This document shows positions 4,921-15,594 of a DNA stretch of 40,840 bases, one piece after another (position 1 is the stretch's first letter; each line of letters begins with the position of its first letter). The notes below the pieces were generated by a model. The model saw only the letters and a list, made by a program, of their open reading frames with translations. It was not told the origin of the DNA and searched no databases. The position numbers were made by a program, and so were the translations under genes. Source of the DNA: a virus; IMG/VR virus record IMGVR_UViG_3300044707_000115, positions 1-40,840 of that record. One strand, 5' to 3'.

Positions 4921-5373
4921 TCAAATCTCCTTGGAATGCATCCGCTCGGTCAGAGTGTAACCCATGATGCCGAGGATTCTTGCGGCAGGTGTCTCATCTC
5001 GCCCATTCATCACCAGATCGCTCATCGCCACGTACTTCAAACCGCGTTGCTTGGCCTCGCGCTCAAACGCCTGCATGAGCCTGATGCCAGCCATGCCACG
5101 ATGCGCAGGATCCACCCACCACGCGAGCTCCACAGCAGTCTGCATGTGCGGAGCAAACCAGAGCGGGCCGACCACGCCAAGCATGACGCCGATGATTTGC
5201 TCGCCGTTGAGCGCAACAAACGAAACTCCACAGTCGATGACCGCGCTTATACCGTTCGCTAGTTGCTCGTCGGTCAGATGGTCGTTGATCGACCTGTACT
5301 CGCTGTACTGGATGAACTGCCTGCCCATCGTCAGCAGCGCAGGAACGTCATCGCGGGTTGCTGGTCGGATCAT
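4921..5373 (-). CDS. GNAT-family N-acetyltransferase
   Basis: 150 residues. GNAT enzymes move an acetyl group from acetyl-CoA to an amine. The fold is visible: MIRPATRDDVPAL opening strand and helix, the core strand VELAWWVDPAHRG leading into the acetyl-CoA pyrophosphate loop RGMAGIRLM, and a final beta strand near GYTLTERM. ATG 5373 overlaps the terminase stop as ATGA, which fixes this start; a longer upstream open frame is only the shadow of terminase. Phages of this type often carry a GNAT between terminase and portal. The substrate is unknown; a virion or host protein are both possible. Confidence 0.85.
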   Translation of the reverse strand: MIRPATRDDVPALLTMGRQFIQYSEYRSINDHLTDEQLANGISAVIDCGVSFVALNGEQIIGVMLGVVGPLWFAPHMQTAVELAWWVDPAHRGMAGIRLMQAFEREAKQRGLKYVAMSDLVMNGRDETPAARILGIMGYTLTERMHSKEI

Positions 5374-6689
5374 TGCATGCCCTCGTATGGGTCGTAGTCG
5401 CCTGGTCGAGTGTCGATCCGGTCGCGCACCTCGCGTGGGAGCTGCTTGCCGACGGGGAACGCGAACGTCAGAGCCAGCGCGTCGGCGATGTCCGGGCTGG
5501 CCCCTCCCTGTAGCCGGCGCTTGATGTCGTCCTTGGATTCGAGCACGCGCCTGCCGTTGGAGTCGTACGAATACGTGGGGGTGGCGAGTTCGGCCTTCAG
5601 GTACGGGTCGTTGGGAATCGAGCCGCCCTGCTCCATCCACTCCCGCATCGTCCACCACATCTCGGTGCGCTTGTTGACGAACAGGCCGGGGTTGTTGGCC
5701 TTGCCGCCGAAGTTGATCTCGACGATCCCGTAGCCCAACTGGCGCAGCCGGTCGATCACGCCCGCCCCGCCGCCGACGTCGATGAACACGCCGTCCGGAT
5801 CGCGCTCCTCGATGACGTTGGCGACACGGCCAGCCAGGCCCATGTTGTCGATCCCACGGTAGACCTGCGGCTCGAACACGACGAGCCCTTGGCGCAGCAC
5901 GATCACGCTGCGGTCGTCACCGAACCGGGCAGGGTCAACGCCAACGACCAGCGGAGCGTCCACGATGTCGCCGTCGGGGTACTTGCGCCGTGCCGCTGAC
6001 TCAGCGTCGGACAGGGTAATGAGCTGGTCGTCGCCGGCGGCGCTGAAGTCACACAGGTACTCACGAGCGAACGCCGTTTCGGGCATGTCGCGGCGCAGGC
6101 GCTTGACCTCGTCACGGTCGATGGCGTCCGTATCATCGACGGTATAGAGGGCAGACCACCAGTCCTCGAGGCCGTTGGAGCGGTAGAACAGCTCGCTGAA
6201 CAGGTTGATGCCAGACGGCGTGCCAATGAACATCGCCCAGCCCTTGCGGTCGGACAGGGCAGGCTGAACGATGTCGGTCCAGACCTCGGGCTTGATTTGC
6301 GCGACCTCGTCAATCACGCAGCCGTCTAGACGGACGCCGCGCAGGGCGTCGGGGTTGTCGCCGCCGAACAGGCGGATAGTGGCGCCGTTGTGTTTGAACA
6401 CGACGGCCAGATCCACTTCGTTGATGTCGATGGCCCCGGTCGTGCGCATGGGGCGCAGTTTGTCCTTGAGACGCGCCCAAGCGATGGCCTTGGCCTGGCG
6501 CAGGAACGGAGCGATGTACACGTAGAACCCGAGCGGCTGCTTGCATTTCAGAGCCTTGTCCAAAAGCTCCATGATGGCAAGTTCCGTCTTGCCGGCACGG
6601 CGGTGCAGGGCGAGCACGGTGAACCGCTTGCGCTTGAGATGGCACTCACGCTGCCACTGGCGCGGGTTGTAGTCAAGACTTATCGGCAC
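5370..6689 (-). CDS. terL: Terminase large subunit
   Basis: 439 residues: the ATPase and nuclease motor that pumps DNA into proheads and cuts concatemers. The Walker A variant HRRAGKTE is at residues 29-36 and Walker B is CVIDEVAQ. The coupling motif IGTPSG follows. The nuclease domain shows GVDPARFGDDRS, FIDVGGGAGVIDRL and DIADALAL, which supply the acidic metal ligands. The length matches complete enzymes. Its ATG overlaps the end of the small-subunit gene by 17 bases and its stop overlaps the acetyltransferase start. Packaging style (headful or site-specific) cannot be read from the sequence. Confidence 0.95.
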   Translation of the reverse strand: MPISLDYNPRQWQRECHLKRKRFTVLALHRRAGKTELAIMELLDKALKCKQPLGFYVYIAPFLRQAKAIAWARLKDKLRPMRTTGAIDINEVDLAVVFKHNGATIRLFGGDNPDALRGVRLDGCVIDEVAQIKPEVWTDIVQPALSDRKGWAMFIGTPSGINLFSELFYRSNGLEDWWSALYTVDDTDAIDRDEVKRLRRDMPETAFAREYLCDFSAAGDDQLITLSDAESAARRKYPDGDIVDAPLVVGVDPARFGDDRSVIVLRQGLVVFEPQVYRGIDNMGLAGRVANVIEERDPDGVFIDVGGGAGVIDRLRQLGYGIVEINFGGKANNPGLFVNKRTEMWWTMREWMEQGGSIPNDPYLKAELATPTYSYDSNGRRVLESKDDIKRRLQGGASPDIADALALTFAFPVGKQLPREVRDRIDTRPGDYDPYEGMQ

Positions 6690-7227
6690 TTGGCACGCCC
6701 GTGATGACGGTCAGGTTCACGCCGCCGGCATGGTCAACCCCAACCTTGTCGCCGTACTTCTTGGGGTTCCACTTGGCGAGGAGCTTGAGCCGCGTCTCGA
6801 CCTGGAGGCGACGCCATGCCACCTCGACCTGATCGGCAGGCTTAGTGTCGGCCAGTTCCTTGCACTCGTCGGCAATCACGTCGTGCCCGTCCTCACGCGC
6901 CTGCGCGATGCGTAGGTCAAACGCTGGATCCTTGGCCCTCCAGTCGTAGACCACGGTGAAATGAGGCTTGCCTTCAAGTCTGCACCATTCCCGCAGCGGC
7001 TTGCCAGCGGCCAACCATGCGACGAGTTCGTCGGCTAGGTCTTGCGGGACGGGCTCTGGCGGTCGGCCTATCGGGCGCGGCGCTTGGCTGCCTTCGCCTT
7101 GTCCGCCCTGACGAACTCCTTTGCGACGCTCATAGGGACGCCGACCTTCTTTGCGAACGACCGGGAGTGCGCTGCCGCCTGCATCAGGCGCTTCTGTGCG
7201 GGTGATTTGCTTGGCATCAGGTTTCAT
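6673..7227 (-). CDS. terS: Terminase small subunit (start uncertain)
   Basis: The small subunit recognises phage DNA and loads the motor. The conserved part begins near codon 53 with IGRPPEPVPQDLADELV, where related proteins usually begin with a Met before GRP. It then shows a helix-turn-helix-like region (GKPLREWCRLEGKPHFTVVYDW), a helical oligomerisation region (VEVAWRRLQVETRLKLLAKWNP) and the common C-terminal KYGDKVGVDHAG. The first in-frame ATG, 7227, gives 184 residues, but residues 1-52 are low complexity and lie over a 49-aa gene in another frame. The expected start position is ATA (7071-7069), overlapping that gene's TAG. An AUA start, the long form or a frameshift are all possible. 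Confidence 0.8.
   Translation of the reverse strand: MKPDAKQITRTEAPDAGGSALPVVRKEGRRPYERRKGVRQGGQGEGSQAPRPIGRPPEPVPQDLADELVAWLAAGKPLREWCRLEGKPHFTVVYDWRAKDPAFDLRIAQAREDGHDVIADECKELADTKPADQVEVAWRRLQVETRLKLLAKWNPKKYGDKVGVDHAGGVNLTVITGVPSADKS
7068..7217 (-). CDS. Small basic phage protein overlapping terS start
   Basis: 49 residues, too short for routine calling. It begins MPSKSPAQKRLMQAAAHS and continues with a basic FAKKVGVPMSVAKEF helix and an Ala/Lys/Arg tail. I recognise this as a very widespread small phage protein type (MPSKSxAQ..LM.A....FAKK.GIP..VAKEF..AD). Its function is unknown; the basic charge suggests nucleic-acid binding. The start overlaps the preceding gene's stop as TGATG, which supports real translation. 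Its stop TAG overlaps an ATA codon at the conserved beginning of terS, so it occupies the region otherwise called the terS N-terminus. Confidence 0.75.
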   Translation of the reverse strand: MPSKSPAQKRLMQAAAHSRSFAKKVGVPMSVAKEFVRADKAKAAKRRAR

Positions 7228-7462
7228 TCTTATATGAAAGATGGATTTCCAGTCCAACGGATTCGGCGATGGCGATTGCGCTGGCGAGGTTGCATCCCTT
7301 GCGCCTGATCTTGGGGGCGTCAGAAAGTAGGCACCGCACGTTGTGTGCCGCCATGCGGTCCTCGGCGTCCATGCGAACAGCCAGCGCGTTGGTGATCTGT
7401 CCGGTCTGTGCCATGTGCTCGCGCACGGCGGCCTTCCAGTCATCGAAGCTTCGTACGATCAT
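7217..7462 (-). CDS. Small helix-turn-helix DNA-binding protein
   Basis: 81 residues. After an N-terminal helix (SFDDWKAAVREHM) the spacing of TGQITNALAVRMDAEDRMAAHNVRCLL and KGCNLASAIAIAESVGL follows a small XRE-like five-helix arrangement, in which an index helix is followed by a recognition helix and a packing helix. It may regulate phage transcription or assist packaging initiation, since it lies just upstream of the terminase genes. ATG 7462 is 12 bases after the previous stop. There is no clear second domain. The helix-turn-helix call rests on pattern only. Confidence 0.55.
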   Translation of the reverse strand: MIVRSFDDWKAAVREHMAQTGQITNALAVRMDAEDRMAAHNVRCLLSDAPKIRRKGCNLASAIAIAESVGLEIHLSYKNET

Positions 7463-7474
7463 GGCGTGATTATA

Positions 7475-7762
7475 TCAGTCCTTGGTGCTGTTTATGCCGA
7501 AATCTTGGATAGTCGCAGCCCAAACCAACCGCGGTGTGCCCGGCCCCATCCACCGTGCCTCGATCTCGTCGGTGACGAAGCACCGTGCTTCAACCTGGGT
7601 CATGCCCTGATCGTCGCGTAGGCGTGCTGCGATCATGTCCGCGCTGTAGACGACCACGGGCGGCCCTGCCTCGCCGGCGCGGGGGTAGTGCACGCCGAGG
7701 ATGCAGTCATCTAGGCCCGCCAGCAGCACCTGCTTCCCCGATGACTTGCGCTTGCGTGCCAT
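7475..7762 (-). CDS. Conserved small phage protein
   Basis: 95 residues from ATG 7762: a basic start MARKRKSSGK, then VLLAGLDDCILGVHYP, PVVVYSADMIAARL, DGMTQVEARCFV and MGPGTPRLVWA. The order G-x-DDCILGV, VYSxDxxxxxL, GMTxxEAxxFV and GxGTPxxVW is a recurrent small phage protein family in which a bound-nucleotide-free alpha-beta fold is usual; no biochemical role is known. The start overlaps the last 56 bases of the replication gene. An upstream in-frame extension is low-complexity shadow of that gene, so I rejected it. Confidence 0.7.
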   Translation of the reverse strand: MARKRKSSGKQVLLAGLDDCILGVHYPRAGEAGPPVVVYSADMIAARLRDDQGMTQVEARCFVTDEIEARWMGPGTPRLVWAATIQDFGINSTKD

Positions 7763-8606
7763 GACCGGGATTGTACGGGGCGGCGAGTCGTGCCCTCCAC
7801 ACGGCTGCGATGTTCCGGACGCTCTTGTCGGCGAGATCGTTGCGCACGACTGTCGCTGGGGATTGACCGCCTTCGAGGTATTCGGCGAGCCATCGTCGGT
7901 ACATGGCCTCGGCCTCGCCATCAGCGAGGCCGTTGGTTCGCAGTTTGGCGAGCGTGAGCTCGCGCTCCTGCTCGACCTTGGCGGTCATCACGGCGATCCC
8001 GTCGGCGATGACCTCGTCCTCGGTGACGGCCCTCTGCTGTCCGTCCTCCCCCTTGACATACCAGTCCCCCGCCCCCGCCCGTTCGACCCGTGTACGCCAG
8101 GCTGGCTCGCGCATGAGCAAACGCTTCATCGCGTCACGAGCAAGGGGGGTAGGGGGGGTTTTGATTCTCTTTGACTCTGATTCTGATTCTGACTCTGAAT
8201 GGCATTGCGTGGGCAATGCTCGCGCATTGCTCGCGCATTGCGTCGGCATTGCGGGCGCAGTGCGTGCGCATGGTTCTGGGCGCTTGTATCGGGCTGCCGC
8301 AGCACGCTTCGCGTTGTTGCTAACTGCTTCTGCCTTCTCGACTTGCGTGCTACGGACGCTCTCTAACTTGGCGTTTCGGAGCCGACCGTCCTCGTCGCTG
8401 CGCTTGAACTTGTCTCGGATTATCAGCCAGTCACCTTCCTGCATCTGCATTGCGCCTGCAATGCGTGCGCATTGCTCCATGCAGTCTGGCACGCTGCCGT
8501 TGTCCCACTGGAACACCAGCAGGCTGATGTAGATCCCGCGCTGGGCAGCCGACATGTGGCCGACCGACGCGGCCCATTCCTTCGTGTACAGGGGAAACCA
8601 ATGCAT
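7707..8606 (-). CDS. DUF1376 (YdaU-like) replication initiator protein
   Basis: 299 residues. The N-terminal ~100 residues (MHWFPLYTKEWAAS, MSAAQRGIYISLLVFQWDNG, LRNAKLESVR) form the DUF1376 winged-helix-type domain seen in YdaU and other putative phage replication initiators. A variable middle includes a SESESESES run, and the C-terminal part is helical (VRNDLADKSVRNIAAVW). ATG 8606 is chosen because GGAAGG lies about 7 bases upstream. The gene contains ten copies of a 7-bp motif set at 11-bp steps, so it probably carries its own origin, as lambda O does. No helicase or primase is encoded, so it would recruit host machinery. Confidence 0.75.
   Translation of the reverse strand: MHWFPLYTKEWAASVGHMSAAQRGIYISLLVFQWDNGSVPDCMEQCARIAGAMQMQEGDWLIIRDKFKRSDEDGRLRNAKLESVRSTQVEKAEAVSNNAKRAAAARYKRPEPCARTAPAMPTQCASNARALPTQCHSESESESESKRIKTPPTPLARDAMKRLLMREPAWRTRVERAGAGDWYVKGEDGQQRAVTEDEVIADGIAVMTAKVEQERELTLAKLRTNGLADGEAEAMYRRWLAEYLEGGQSPATVVRNDLADKSVRNIAAVWRARLAAPYNPGHGTQAQVIGEAGAAGGPR
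8163..8199. repeat. Hexamer repeat (GATTCT/GACTCT), AT-richer than surroundings
   Basis: Tandem copies of GATTCT or GACTCT follow one another at about 6-base steps next to the iteron array. They encode the Ser-Glu run of the replication protein on the minus strand. AT content is visibly higher here than in flanking DNA. By analogy with lambda ori this could be the strand-opening element. Confidence 0.6.
8202..8278. repeat. Iteron array, 7 x 11 bp: candidate replication origin
   Basis: Seven direct units begin at 8202, 8213, 8224, 8235, 8246, 8257 and 8268, exactly 11 bases apart: GCATTGCGTGG, GCAATGCTCGC, GCATTGCTCGC, GCATTGCGTCG, GCATTGCGGGC, GCAGTGCGTGC, GCATGGTTCTG. The core is GCATTGC; the last unit is degenerate. 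An 11-base period is not a multiple of three, so it cannot come from a repeated protein motif, and it places every unit on one face of the helix. Lying inside a replication gene beside an AT-richer repeat, it looks like an initiator-binding array. Confidence 0.8.
8447..8475. repeat. Second iteron cluster, 3 units at 11 bp
   Basis: GCATTGC (8447), GCAATGC (8458) and GCATTGC (8469) again lie exactly 11 bases apart, within the 5' half of the same replication gene and about 170 bases from the main array. The middle unit is also the reverse complement of its neighbours. It may be an additional initiator-binding site. Confidence 0.65.
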
Positions 8607-8941
8607 GATTCTGCCTTCCGTCCGCCATGTAGCGGACAAATGAAATCCTGAGGAGACAGCGGGGAGCGAGTGCGAGCTGACCCGCTGCCCCCCAGGTTGG
8701 GTTGTTGAGCGTTTGCACTCGCTCTGGGGTCACAGTCTAGCGTGTCATTTCATCGGATGCTGGAGCAAATGCACTACACATTTGGACATCTGTAGCGCAA
8801 TGGGACACAACGCCTGAGCGTCTGTCCCCGGCGGCAGGTTCGTTACCCCAATGTTCCGGCGCTGCGGCGTACCTCGCGGCCTTCAGGCAGCACCCATGTC
8901 GGCAGTCGAATCCGACGTCACCGCGCCCCTATCCTACCGCC
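8607..8941. other. Intergenic control region upstream of the replication gene
   Basis: 335 bases between two divergently oriented genes. It holds a perfect 10-bp inverted repeat, GAGCGAGTGC at 8664-8673 and GCACTCGCTC at 8715-8724, with flanking G-runs. Outside it are ATGAAAT near 8639 and ATTTCAT near 8741 as a nested outer pair. Open frames here are short or shadows. I see no convincing sigma70 promoter, although both flanking genes could need one. The symmetry suggests a binding site or an RNA structure in the replication gene leader. Confidence 0.5.
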
Positions 8942-13292: not shown

Positions 13293-13705
13293 TAATCGCC
13301 ATCATTGCTGCCGCGCTGGTCGTGCCGCCGCCTGCCGGAACAGACGTGAACCGCATCCTGACCGCCATCGCAGCCGTTGAGACTAGCGGCGAGCGTCAGC
13401 CGGACCGTGCCGTCGGCGACAACGGGAAGGCGCTCGGTCGTTTCCAGATTTGGGAGGTGTACTGGAAGGACGCCTGCGAGTACGACAAGTCGCTTCGTTC
13501 GCGCCCGTACACCGATGTCACCGACCCCGAATACGCCAAGCGCGTTGTCATCGCCTACCTCTCGCGCTACGCACCGGACTGGTCGATTGACACGGTGTCG
13601 AGGATCCACAACGGAGGGCCACGTGGCGCAACAGGGAAGCGCCGGAGAGCCACGGACGGCTACGCGGCCAAGGCCGCACGGGAGTACGCACGATGCGATA
13701 CTTGA
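13289..13705 (+). CDS. Lysozyme/transglycosylase-like protein, putative endolysin
   Basis: 138 residues. A short hydrophobic start (MIIAIIAAALVV) suggests a signal or signal-anchor. The enzyme core has AIAAVETSGERQPDRAVGD with a likely catalytic Glu, then NGKALGRFQIWEVYWKDA, and a final helix VSRIHNGGPRG, the plan of soluble lytic transglycosylase-type muramidases. It would cleave peptidoglycan. ATG 13289 overlaps the preceding stop as ATGA; an in-frame start at 13247 would hide the hydrophobic start. Its 3' end overlaps the methyltransferase by 13 bases. It lies in the early operon and not with the lysis genes at 18 kb, so its timing is unusual. Confidence 0.65.
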   Translation: MIIAIIAAALVVPPPAGTDVNRILTAIAAVETSGERQPDRAVGDNGKALGRFQIWEVYWKDACEYDKSLRSRPYTDVTDPEYAKRVVIAYLSRYAPDWSIDTVSRIHNGGPRGATGKRRRATDGYAAKAAREYARCDT

Positions 13706-15594
13706 GTGTGTGCAGCGGCATTGAGGCCGCGAGCGTAGCGTGGCATCATCTCGGATGGGAGCCTGTTGGGTTCAGCGAGATTGAGCCGTTTCCTGCGGCG
13801 GTACTTGCGCACAGATTTCCAAACGTCCCTAACTACGGGGACATGACCAAGTTTGAGGAGTGGCCAATTGAACGAGGAACCATTGATGTCCTTGTGGGGG
13901 GAACCCCTTGTCAAAGCTTCAGCGTTGCCGGACTGCGACAGGGACTCGCCGACCCTCGCGGAAACCTCATGCTTACCTACCTGGCGATCGCTGATCGCCT
14001 GCGCCCACGATGGCTCGTGTGGGAAAATGTCCCCGGTGTTCTGTCGAGCAACGGAGGACGGGACTTTGGAACCTTCCTCGGGGCGTTGGGGCAACTCGGG
14101 TATGGGTGGGCCTATCGGGTGCTTGACGCTCAATACCTGCGAGTGGGGCGATGGCCCAGAGCCGTCCCGCAGCGCAGGCGACGTGTCTTCGTTGTCGGAT
14201 GTCTTGGAGACTGGGCCGCTGCCGGAGAAGTACTCGCTCTCGCCGAGGGCTTGCAGGGGTATCTGCGCTCGCGCCGAGCGAAGGGGAAAGGAGTTGCCGC
14301 CGATGCTGAAGGCGGCGCTCGAGGCGGTTGCTACTGGAACGGAGAACAGGTCGCAGCAACCCTGACTCGCAAGGGCTGCGATGATCGGATGCCTGACAAG
14401 GAAAGGATGTTTGCGGTCTTGCAGCCGACCGCCTACCGATGGCAGAACGACCGCGACGGCTTGCAGCAGGATGATGCCGTCGCCGCGCTGCGAGCTTCGC
14501 AGGGCGCGAGCGGGTTCCACGAGATGAATCACCCGGTGATCGCGCAGCCCGTCCCATACGACCTGTTCCAGATCACCGCCCCGGTGAATCGTCAGAACCG
14601 CGTACCTGGCGACCCGTGCCACACGCTCGCCAAGGACAACGCGGCCCATGCGGCGATTGCCATCGGCACCGACTGCTACAACGGCGCGATCACGGGCGAC
14701 GTCGCCGCCACGATGGGAACACCGGGAAGCAGCGTGAACGCATCAGGGCCGACGGTCATGCAAACTATGGCGTTTGATTGGCAGTCCGGTGGCGACAGCC
14801 GTGGCCCTGACCCGAAAAACACCGCGCAATTACTGCGATGCCAAACGCCAGCGGTGGCTCATGTCGAAACCTTGCCGCAGCAAGGGTATGATGCGTTCCA
14901 TGCCAGCACACAAGAAACCAACGCCGTTGCGACATTGCGAACATTGCGGAACCAAATTGGAGAGGAAGCGTTTGCCGCGTGGGGACTTGGAATACTTGAT
15001 TCACTTCAACCGCAGGAAGTATTGCGGGCGCGTTTGCATGGCCTTGGCATTCGATGCGCGACATTCAGCCGTAGTTGGCCCATCGACTGCGCGATATCAC
15101 GCAAGGAAGATCGTGCCACTTGGGCCATGCAATCGGTGCGGGAAGCCCAAGGCGAAGGATGTCCATCACTTGGATGGCAACTACCTCAACAACTCGCCAC
15201 AGAACTTGGAGCGTATTTGTCGGAGCTGCCACGTCCAGGCGCACAGACGGAAAGGTTCGTGCGCGATCTGTGGCTCGCTGGTGAAGGGATTGGGTTTCTG
15301 CGAGAAGCACTATCAGCGTTTCAAGAAGCACGGCGACCCGCGCATCGTGAAGGTCAACCAGCATTGCACGCCATGCAGGTCAGACGATTGACGGCAACCG
15401 AATGCGAGTTTTTACAGGGATTTCCGCGCAACTGGACGCTGATCCCCTGGCGGAAGAAGCCAGCCGAGGACTGCCCAGACGGGCCGAGGTACAAGGCACT
15501 CGGGAACTCGATGGCCTGCAATTGCATGGCATGGATCGGCGAGCGTATCGCCGCGTATGAGAGTCAAACCCCTAACCAGAAGGAGCACACATGA
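13693..15594 (+). CDS. C5-cytosine DNA methyltransferase
   Basis: 633 residues. It transfers a methyl group from S-adenosylmethionine to cytosine. Motif I is LSVCSGIEA; motif IV is GGTPCQSFS with catalytic C73; motif VI is ENV at 111-113; motif VIII is QRRRR from Q160; motif X is YKALGNSMA near the C-terminus. RLTATECEFLQGFP precedes motif X as usual. Length is well above typical (about 330-450) because residues ~200-570 hold a long variable region. Two other genes are encoded in the +1 frame within it, at 13886-14365 and 14891-15391. It may protect phage DNA from host restriction. No partner nuclease of a restriction system is seen. Confidence 0.92.
   Translation: MRYLSVCSGIEAASVAWHHLGWEPVGFSEIEPFPAAVLAHRFPNVPNYGDMTKFEEWPIERGTIDVLVGGTPCQSFSVAGLRQGLADPRGNLMLTYLAIADRLRPRWLVWENVPGVLSSNGGRDFGTFLGALGQLGYGWAYRVLDAQYLRVGRWPRAVPQRRRRVFVVGCLGDWAAAGEVLALAEGLQGYLRSRRAKGKGVAADAEGGARGGCYWNGEQVAATLTRKGCDDRMPDKERMFAVLQPTAYRWQNDRDGLQQDDAVAALRASQGASGFHEMNHPVIAQPVPYDLFQITAPVNRQNRVPGDPCHTLAKDNAAHAAIAIGTDCYNGAITGDVAATMGTPGSSVNASGPTVMQTMAFDWQSGGDSRGPDPKNTAQLLRCQTPAVAHVETLPQQGYDAFHASTQETNAVATLRTLRNQIGEEAFAAWGLGILDSLQPQEVLRARLHGLGIRCATFSRSWPIDCAISRKEDRATWAMQSVREAQGEGCPSLGWQLPQQLATELGAYLSELPRPGAQTERFVRDLWLAGEGIGFLREALSAFQEARRPAHREGQPALHAMQVRRLTATECEFLQGFPRNWTLIPWRKKPAEDCPDGPRYKALGNSMACNCMAWIGERIAAYESQTPNQKEHT
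13886..14365 (+). CDS. Overprinted ORF in +1 frame of the methyltransferase
   Basis: 159 residues, lying wholly inside the methyltransferase at its motif IV-VIII region. ATG 13886 has GAGGA 7 bases upstream, a good ribosome site. By eye third codon positions are mostly G/C in this frame, more so than in the methyltransferase frame. Product begins MSLWGEPLVKASALPDC, is Cys/Ser/Gly-rich in the middle, and ends with a basic helix (LSPRACRGICARAERRG) plus LPPMLKAALEAVA. I recall similar chains from other phages but no function. Translation is not proven; conservation could come from the methyltransferase alone. Confidence 0.45.
   Translation: MSLWGEPLVKASALPDCDRDSPTLAETSCLPTWRSLIACAHDGSCGKMSPVFCRATEDGTLEPSSGRWGNSGMGGPIGCLTLNTCEWGDGPEPSRSAGDVSSLSDVLETGPLPEKYSLSPRACRGICARAERRGKELPPMLKAALEAVATGTENRSQQP
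14891..15391 (+). CDS. HNH endonuclease overprinted in the methyltransferase
   Basis: 166 residues in the +1 frame of the methyltransferase. HCEHCGTKLERKR and KYCGRVCM form a first Cys4 zinc knuckle. CNRCGKPKAKDVHHLDGNYL, NNSPQNLERICRSCHVQAH is a complete HNH core with its zinc Cys pairs. CAICGSLVKGLGFCEKHYQRFKKHGDP is the basic C-terminal zinc module usual in phage HNH enzymes. AAGGG lies 4 bases before ATG 14891; ATG 14900 is an alternative. Third positions are mostly G/C in this frame and poorer in the methyltransferase frame. It would nick or cut DNA, as a homing or packaging-linked nuclease. Confidence 0.8.
   Translation: MRSMPAHKKPTPLRHCEHCGTKLERKRLPRGDLEYLIHFNRRKYCGRVCMALAFDARHSAVVGPSTARYHARKIVPLGPCNRCGKPKAKDVHHLDGNYLNNSPQNLERICRSCHVQAHRRKGSCAICGSLVKGLGFCEKHYQRFKKHGDPRIVKVNQHCTPCRSDD

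Follow-up and report, generated by a model that had tools for sequence, protein, structure and literature searches.

The DUF1376 gene and its genome context

The window, by which we mean the whole stretch of viral DNA analyzed (40,840 nucleotides, IMG/VR record IMGVR_UViG_3300044707_000115), encodes a putative replication initiator on its minus strand. The gene occupies 7707–8606 (ORF 7707–8639, likely ATG at 8606, stop codon at 7707–7709) and, on the basis of ORF calls and Pfam and PHROG matches, comprises an N-terminal DUF1376 domain, a disordered linker, and a C-terminal domain. The protein belongs to the PF07120 (DUF1376) family (E = 1.2e-10, 42 bits against a curated Pfam cut-off of 30.1), and its PHROG matches are annotated either as "primosomal protein" or without function. 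No homologues of the protein were found among sequenced phages using tblastn. The DUF1376 domain (8361–8603, minus strand; Pfam residues 13–93) is predicted to be a winged-helix-like DNA-binding domain, with an AlphaFold2 pLDDT of 86. Foldseek comparison with phage proteins returns DUF1376 and Lin1244-like matches at E < 1e-3. In a fold search of the PDB, the winged-helix matches are weak and none is significant; we therefore only infer DNA binding by this domain and have dropped the PDB matches as proof of a winged-helix fold.

Residues 111–155, encoded by 8142–8276 on the minus strand, form a linker predicted to be disordered (AlphaFold2 full-length pLDDT <50). Because of this predicted disorder, the DNA encoding the linker can accommodate DNA signals, and indeed 8142–8276 is coextensive with the main iteron array, a 6-bp tract, and a C-rich element, all described below. 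At four other loci (L014, L056, L061, and L075), the initiators are short and end shortly past the origin region, the C-terminal half apparently being missing.

Past the initiator gene lie the genes for the small (6673–7443) and large (5370–6689) terminase subunits. Scanning of the window ORFs turned up neither a DNA polymerase nor a helicase, which would fit reliance on the host replisome, and no helicase loader is seen beside the initiator gene in the window. In isolated relatives, the initiator gene is followed by a gene for an IstB/DnaC-like loader or a DnaB-like helicase. The window also encodes an ERF recombinase and a C5 DNA methylase; the ORF of the latter (13693–15594, 633 aa) has family matches in two stretches separated by a long unmatched middle, perhaps an insertion. 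GC skew, one of the checks proposed in the initial annotation, does not turn at 8.2 kb, which is weak evidence against an origin there in a 41-kb, possibly incomplete phage contig.

Two iteron arrays lie within the putative initiator gene

The main array (8202–8274) consists of seven units of GCAWTGC plus 4 bp with a period of 11 bp: GCATTGC at 8202, GCAATGC at 8213, GCATTGC at 8224, 8235, and 8246, GCAGTGC at 8257, and GCATGGT at 8268. Five units are thus exact, one has a mismatch at the center with both arms intact (GCAGTGC), and one is degenerate (GCATGGT). Tandem Repeats Finder (TRF) reports the array with periods of 11 and 33. The initial annotation had described seven copies of GCATTGC at 11-base steps, the last degenerate. 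The steps and the count are as described, but the motif is not directional: unit 2 is the reverse complement of the others, so the recognition sequence is an odd-centered palindrome, GCA-W-TGC. That description had also overlooked a second cluster of three exact GCAWTGC units at 8447, 8458, and 8469 (8447–8475), again with an 11-bp period, inside the part of the same gene that encodes the DUF1376 domain. The whole window contains 20 GCAWTGC matches, 8 of them inside the initiator gene.

The repeats are constrained as DNA

Since the array sits in the linker and three 11-bp steps make 33 bp, equivalent to an 11-residue protein repeat, it could in principle have no function as DNA and simply reflect a low-complexity linker built of repeats of 11 residues (CxxNAxAMxxQ, for example). 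We therefore compared the gene with a synonymous null in which its codons were shuffled 20,000 times. The gene contains 8 heptamers (shuffle mean 1.5, maximum 6) and 6 pairs of heptamers 11 bp apart (mean 0.1, maximum 4), so synonymous shuffling does not reproduce the array. Furthermore, a column-by-column comparison of 16 close relatives, window included, shows that none of the 54 heptamer arm columns varies, the arms of the second cluster being unchanged across all 16. Third-codon positions are variable in 0/18 cases within the arms versus 32/124 elsewhere in the region (p ~0.007, hypergeometric), while the heptamer center (W) varies in 2/9 cases, with a change of amino acid. Arms without silent changes around a center that tolerates amino-acid changes indicate that the motif is constrained as DNA. 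The repeats are clearly real, driven neither by chance nor by the protein, and are under DNA-level selection within the initiator coding sequence.

The same conclusion is reached from arrays that lie outside the initiator coding sequence, of which there are three independent cases. In the mutually related loci L033 and L024, the DUF1376 protein stands alone, with a length of ~120 residues; the array and its tract are intergenic, about 0.8–1.3 kb from the DUF1376 gene. In L006 (5206–5600), two full array-plus-tract modules are arranged in tandem, 344 bp apart, downstream of the DUF1376 stop codon, and in L040 the array starts immediately beyond the stop codon. Protein sequence cannot explain these arrays. 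Together with the shuffles and the invariant third-codon positions, they uphold the earlier statement that protein repeats do not account for the array, and we consider the chance that it is a mere linker by-product to be practically negligible.

The 11-bp phase is retained in relatives

We gathered DUF1376 relatives by N-terminal protein patterns alone, leaving 47 genes after dereplication; as the patterns were seeded from array-bearing loci, this set is not fully blind. The 47 genes contain 117 GCAWTGC motifs against 37 expected from synonymous shuffling, whereas the control motif GCASTGC stays inside the null range. Among spacings of ≤60 bp, 94/102 (92%) differ from a multiple of 11 by at most 1 bp, the common ones being 11, 22, 23, 33, 44, 45, and 54 with few others, and 65/102 are not multiples of 3, which again speaks against a protein repeat. 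The feature kept in these sequences is the 11-bp phase rather than the reading frame. Conservation of the phase in relatives, proposed at the outset as a check, thus holds, and the opposite outcome, a conserved protein with a lost period, is not what we see: genes with the same N-terminal domain retain the period, and relatives without GCAWTGC repeats have another N-terminal domain accompanied by other repeats.

Searching IMG/VR for four heptamers in phase yielded 74 stretches, in metagenomic contigs of which some are partial; the sequence sets are redundant until dereplicated. We tested 49 of these records: a DUF1376 match at E ≤ 0.01, a threshold that is lenient for small records, is present in 33, and 7 more match Lin1244_N above its cut-off; L095, which carries the other repeat described below, was left out of this count. 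An array without a recognized initiator beside it is seen at the viral loci L017, L038/L074, and L073. Not every array match in a genome is to be taken as an origin. Several of the 19 matches in genome contigs resemble minisatellites, being near-perfect and located in unrelated genes or intergenic DNA; L128, L129, L131, and L132, among others, are of this near-perfect kind, consisting of 11-bp GCAWTGC units in bacterial sequence that appears unrelated.

The small and large terminase genes come next in the window, which would suit a partition (centromere-like) or DNA-packaging site. In other phages, however, the arrays accompany the DUF1376/Lin1244 gene and not the terminase, and the scan of the window ORFs revealed neither ParA nor ParB, which makes such a site highly improbable.

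A tandem short-repeat tract abuts the main array

Next to the main array lies a tandem 6-bp tract (8160–8198, minus strand; GAGTCA/GAATCA on the coding strand, A-rich), which corresponds to the adjoining AT-richer hexamer repeats of the initial annotation and is a candidate unwinding or single-strand loading element. TRF assigns it a period of 6, and period-6 identity is 0.86 over the best 28-base stretch. In relatives, a tract directly follows the last iteron, with units of 5 bp (AAAGG, AGAAG), 6 bp (CCCAAT, CACCAA), or 7 bp (CACCAGA, ACCAAGA). The tract exceeds the synonymous null (p < 0.05) in 61 of the 69 genes listed. As the null is exceeded, and as units of 5 and 7 bp do not fit a whole number of codons, the tract is not codon driven, a further argument against a by-product of the linker. 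On the coding strand, the tracts of the DUF1376 set are rich in A and C, those of the Lin1244_N set in A and G. We also looked by eye for TnnT, the motif of the DnaD recognition element. It occurs in most tract classes, not all, and is expected in T-rich strands; we did not retain it.

Directly past the tract, beside the edge of the exchanged block described below, is a C7-TA-C6 element (8144–8158, minus strand; G6-TA-G7 on the plus strand). Double C-runs past the tract are also present in the DUF1376 genes of L014, L054, L061, L123, L235, L245, and L263, and ydaU of the E. coli Rac prophage has an element resembling that of the window. The double C-run is possibly a G-quadruplex-capable strand or a recombination junction.

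The N-terminal domain and the repeats are exchanged together

BLASTN comparison of four related phages (L095, L092, L108, and L111) with the window delineates an exchanged block at 8167–8799 (~630 bp), spanning the upstream region of the gene, the DNA-binding domain, the iterons, and most of the tract. On either side, ending at 8166 and resuming at 8800, the DNA is ~90%–97% identical to the window, and the C-terminal half of the initiator is almost identical, while the interior of the block is unrelated save for a 77% identical upstream stretch (8614–8794) in L108/L111. The replacement block carries another DUF1376-like domain, another repeat, a 20-bp palindrome (AGGGTGGCT..AGCCACCCT) with three copies in the linker and one in the domain, and a 6-bp tract of the CAACNA type. 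In phages that are otherwise ~93% identical, domain and sites are exchanged together and therefore move as one unit, as expected if the domain reads the repeats. Such near-identical phages with differing domain/repeat pairs could allow an initiator-iteron specificity code to be read from natural swaps.

Binding of the repeats by the product of their own gene would explain this joint exchange equally well if they were operators through which the DUF1376 protein represses or times its own operon instead of starting replication. Several features make this unlikely: the main array lies ~330–400 bp into the coding region, and the arrays of L006 and L040 beyond the stop codon; the short-repeat tract, which operators do not need, is retained throughout; and a loader or helicase gene lies past the initiator gene in isolated relatives.

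Related initiators carry other recognition sequences

The alignments of the DUF1376 and Lin1244_N initiators are related (hhalign E 2e-7). Within the Lin1244_N set, a sister initiator family, many members carry GTTSAAC, again as 7+4 bp, and GTTSAAC at 11-bp steps also occurs in DUF1376-related genes of Moraxella phage Mcat20 and Bordetella phage IFTN2. GCAWTGC at 11 or 22 bp is found in isolated Vibrio and Acinetobacter phages. On the tree of the Lin1244_N domain, the repeat type switches several times. A one-to-one rule between clade and iteron does not hold in this family: GTTSAAC clusters on the tree, yet several changes are needed. Many distantly related phages thus appear, from sequence comparison, to share one layout with differing recognition sequences, an unexpectedly wide reach for this arrangement.

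That GCAWTGC accompanies quite divergent initiators (DUF1376 and Lin1244_N) might suggest that the heptamers are read by a host protein rather than by the phage initiator, the array still being an origin or a host-factor site. The several changes of repeat type inside one initiator family argue against this, as does the fact that near-identical phages, which probably have hosts in common, have swapped the repeat together with the N-terminal domain, and we consider a host reader very unlikely.

Proposed mechanism and comparison with known origins

In the mechanism that we propose, the iterons, odd palindromes in helical phase (GCAWTGC at 11-bp steps), are bound by the DUF1376 domain at the N terminus of the protein. 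The stacked complex of domains and iterons would strain or open the abutting short-repeat tract, where the host DnaB helicase would be loaded after recruitment by either the initiator's C-terminal half or a loader. Binding, opening, helicase loading, and origin activity are all inferred from sequence. The locus is very likely an origin embedded in the DNA that encodes the disordered linker of its own initiator, lambda-O-like in arrangement and outside the lambda O family. Such a function would offer a role for DUF1376, a domain of "unknown function," and the arrangement would provide a simple sequence rule for locating origins in metagenomic phages. Our literature search, which was thin on subscription journals, found nothing that ties DUF1376 or GCATTGC to iterons.

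In the lambda origin, the initiator gene carries four iterons of ~18 bp each midway along its length, where the DNA-binding half meets the C-terminal half, and an easily opened tract follows them. The window has the same order, with iterons mid-gene between two protein halves and then a tract, and relatives have the loader or helicase downstream. Unlike lambda O, the window protein has no lambda O domain (DUF1376 is its only Pfam match), and its 7-bp palindromes at 11-bp steps are not lambda-type iterons; the tandem tract of the 5/6/7-bp class and the second cluster in the domain-coding region are further differences. The lambda-O-like origin suggested in the initial annotation is therefore supported by comparative evidence as a functional likeness but not as family membership. 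Iteron plasmid origins also have phased direct repeats adjoining the opening region, similar to the phased repeats beside a candidate opening tract here; in the window, in contrast, the iterons are short odd palindromes inside the initiator coding sequence.

In bacterial oriC, DnaA boxes are accompanied by DnaA-trios or the DnaD recognition element, short tandem repeats that are read as single strand (PMC10201434). The phage tracts resemble this arrangement in that double-strand sites are directly abutted by short tandem repeats. The phage units differ in being 5–7 nt and not 3, and the sequences are unrelated. The tract could nonetheless be a second part of the origin that acts through its specific sequence: a ladder read as single strand, the phage counterpart of DnaA-trios, although we hold this only tentatively. 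It is similarly conceivable, if somewhat doubtful, that unit length (5, 6, or 7 nt, clade specific) and sequence evolve with the initiator, and a large class of phages may, with the same reservation, share a two-array origin composed of an 11-bp double-strand array and a 5–7-nt ladder. If the ladder reading is true, the idea of a sequence-coded loading ladder in origins would extend beyond bacterial oriC.

The Rac prophage of E. coli K-12 has a similar organization, with the DUF1376 gene ydaU followed by ydaV (annotated as a putative ATP-binding protein). The ydaU linker contains TGTTCAA-type repeats and a C7TAAATC7 element (L293, 10505–10590, NC_000913); its repeats differ in their less regular spacing (33, 33, and 12 bp). 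The origin of Rac, oriJ, is active but normally kept repressed (PMC3945230). The literature we found does not state that oriJ is positioned at ydaU, and we put forward the ydaU linker as a candidate for its place. The arrangement described here would thereby provide a candidate, testable origin for many uncharacterized phages and prophages, including this named region of Rac.

A lambda-like run-off replication origin has been proposed in Bartonella, with palindromic repeats in an O-like gene of a phage remnant (Guy et al., 2013; PMC3610622); this O-like gene, gene 4 of the ROR, lies upstream of a helicase gene (PMC3610622). We also find 4-unit GCAWTGC arrays in DUF1376-like genes of Bartonella prophage-like loci (L115, L116, L126, and L130). 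An attempt to tie these by sequence to the experimentally mapped run-off origin, which might have served as an experimental anchor, established no link: they apparently belong to another prophage-like locus, and the array was not found in genes near Toprim proteins. The DUF1376-like gene of L130 belongs to phrog_3992 (primosomal protein), and in L116 and L130 a second short, related-looking gene lies ahead of the array-bearing gene.
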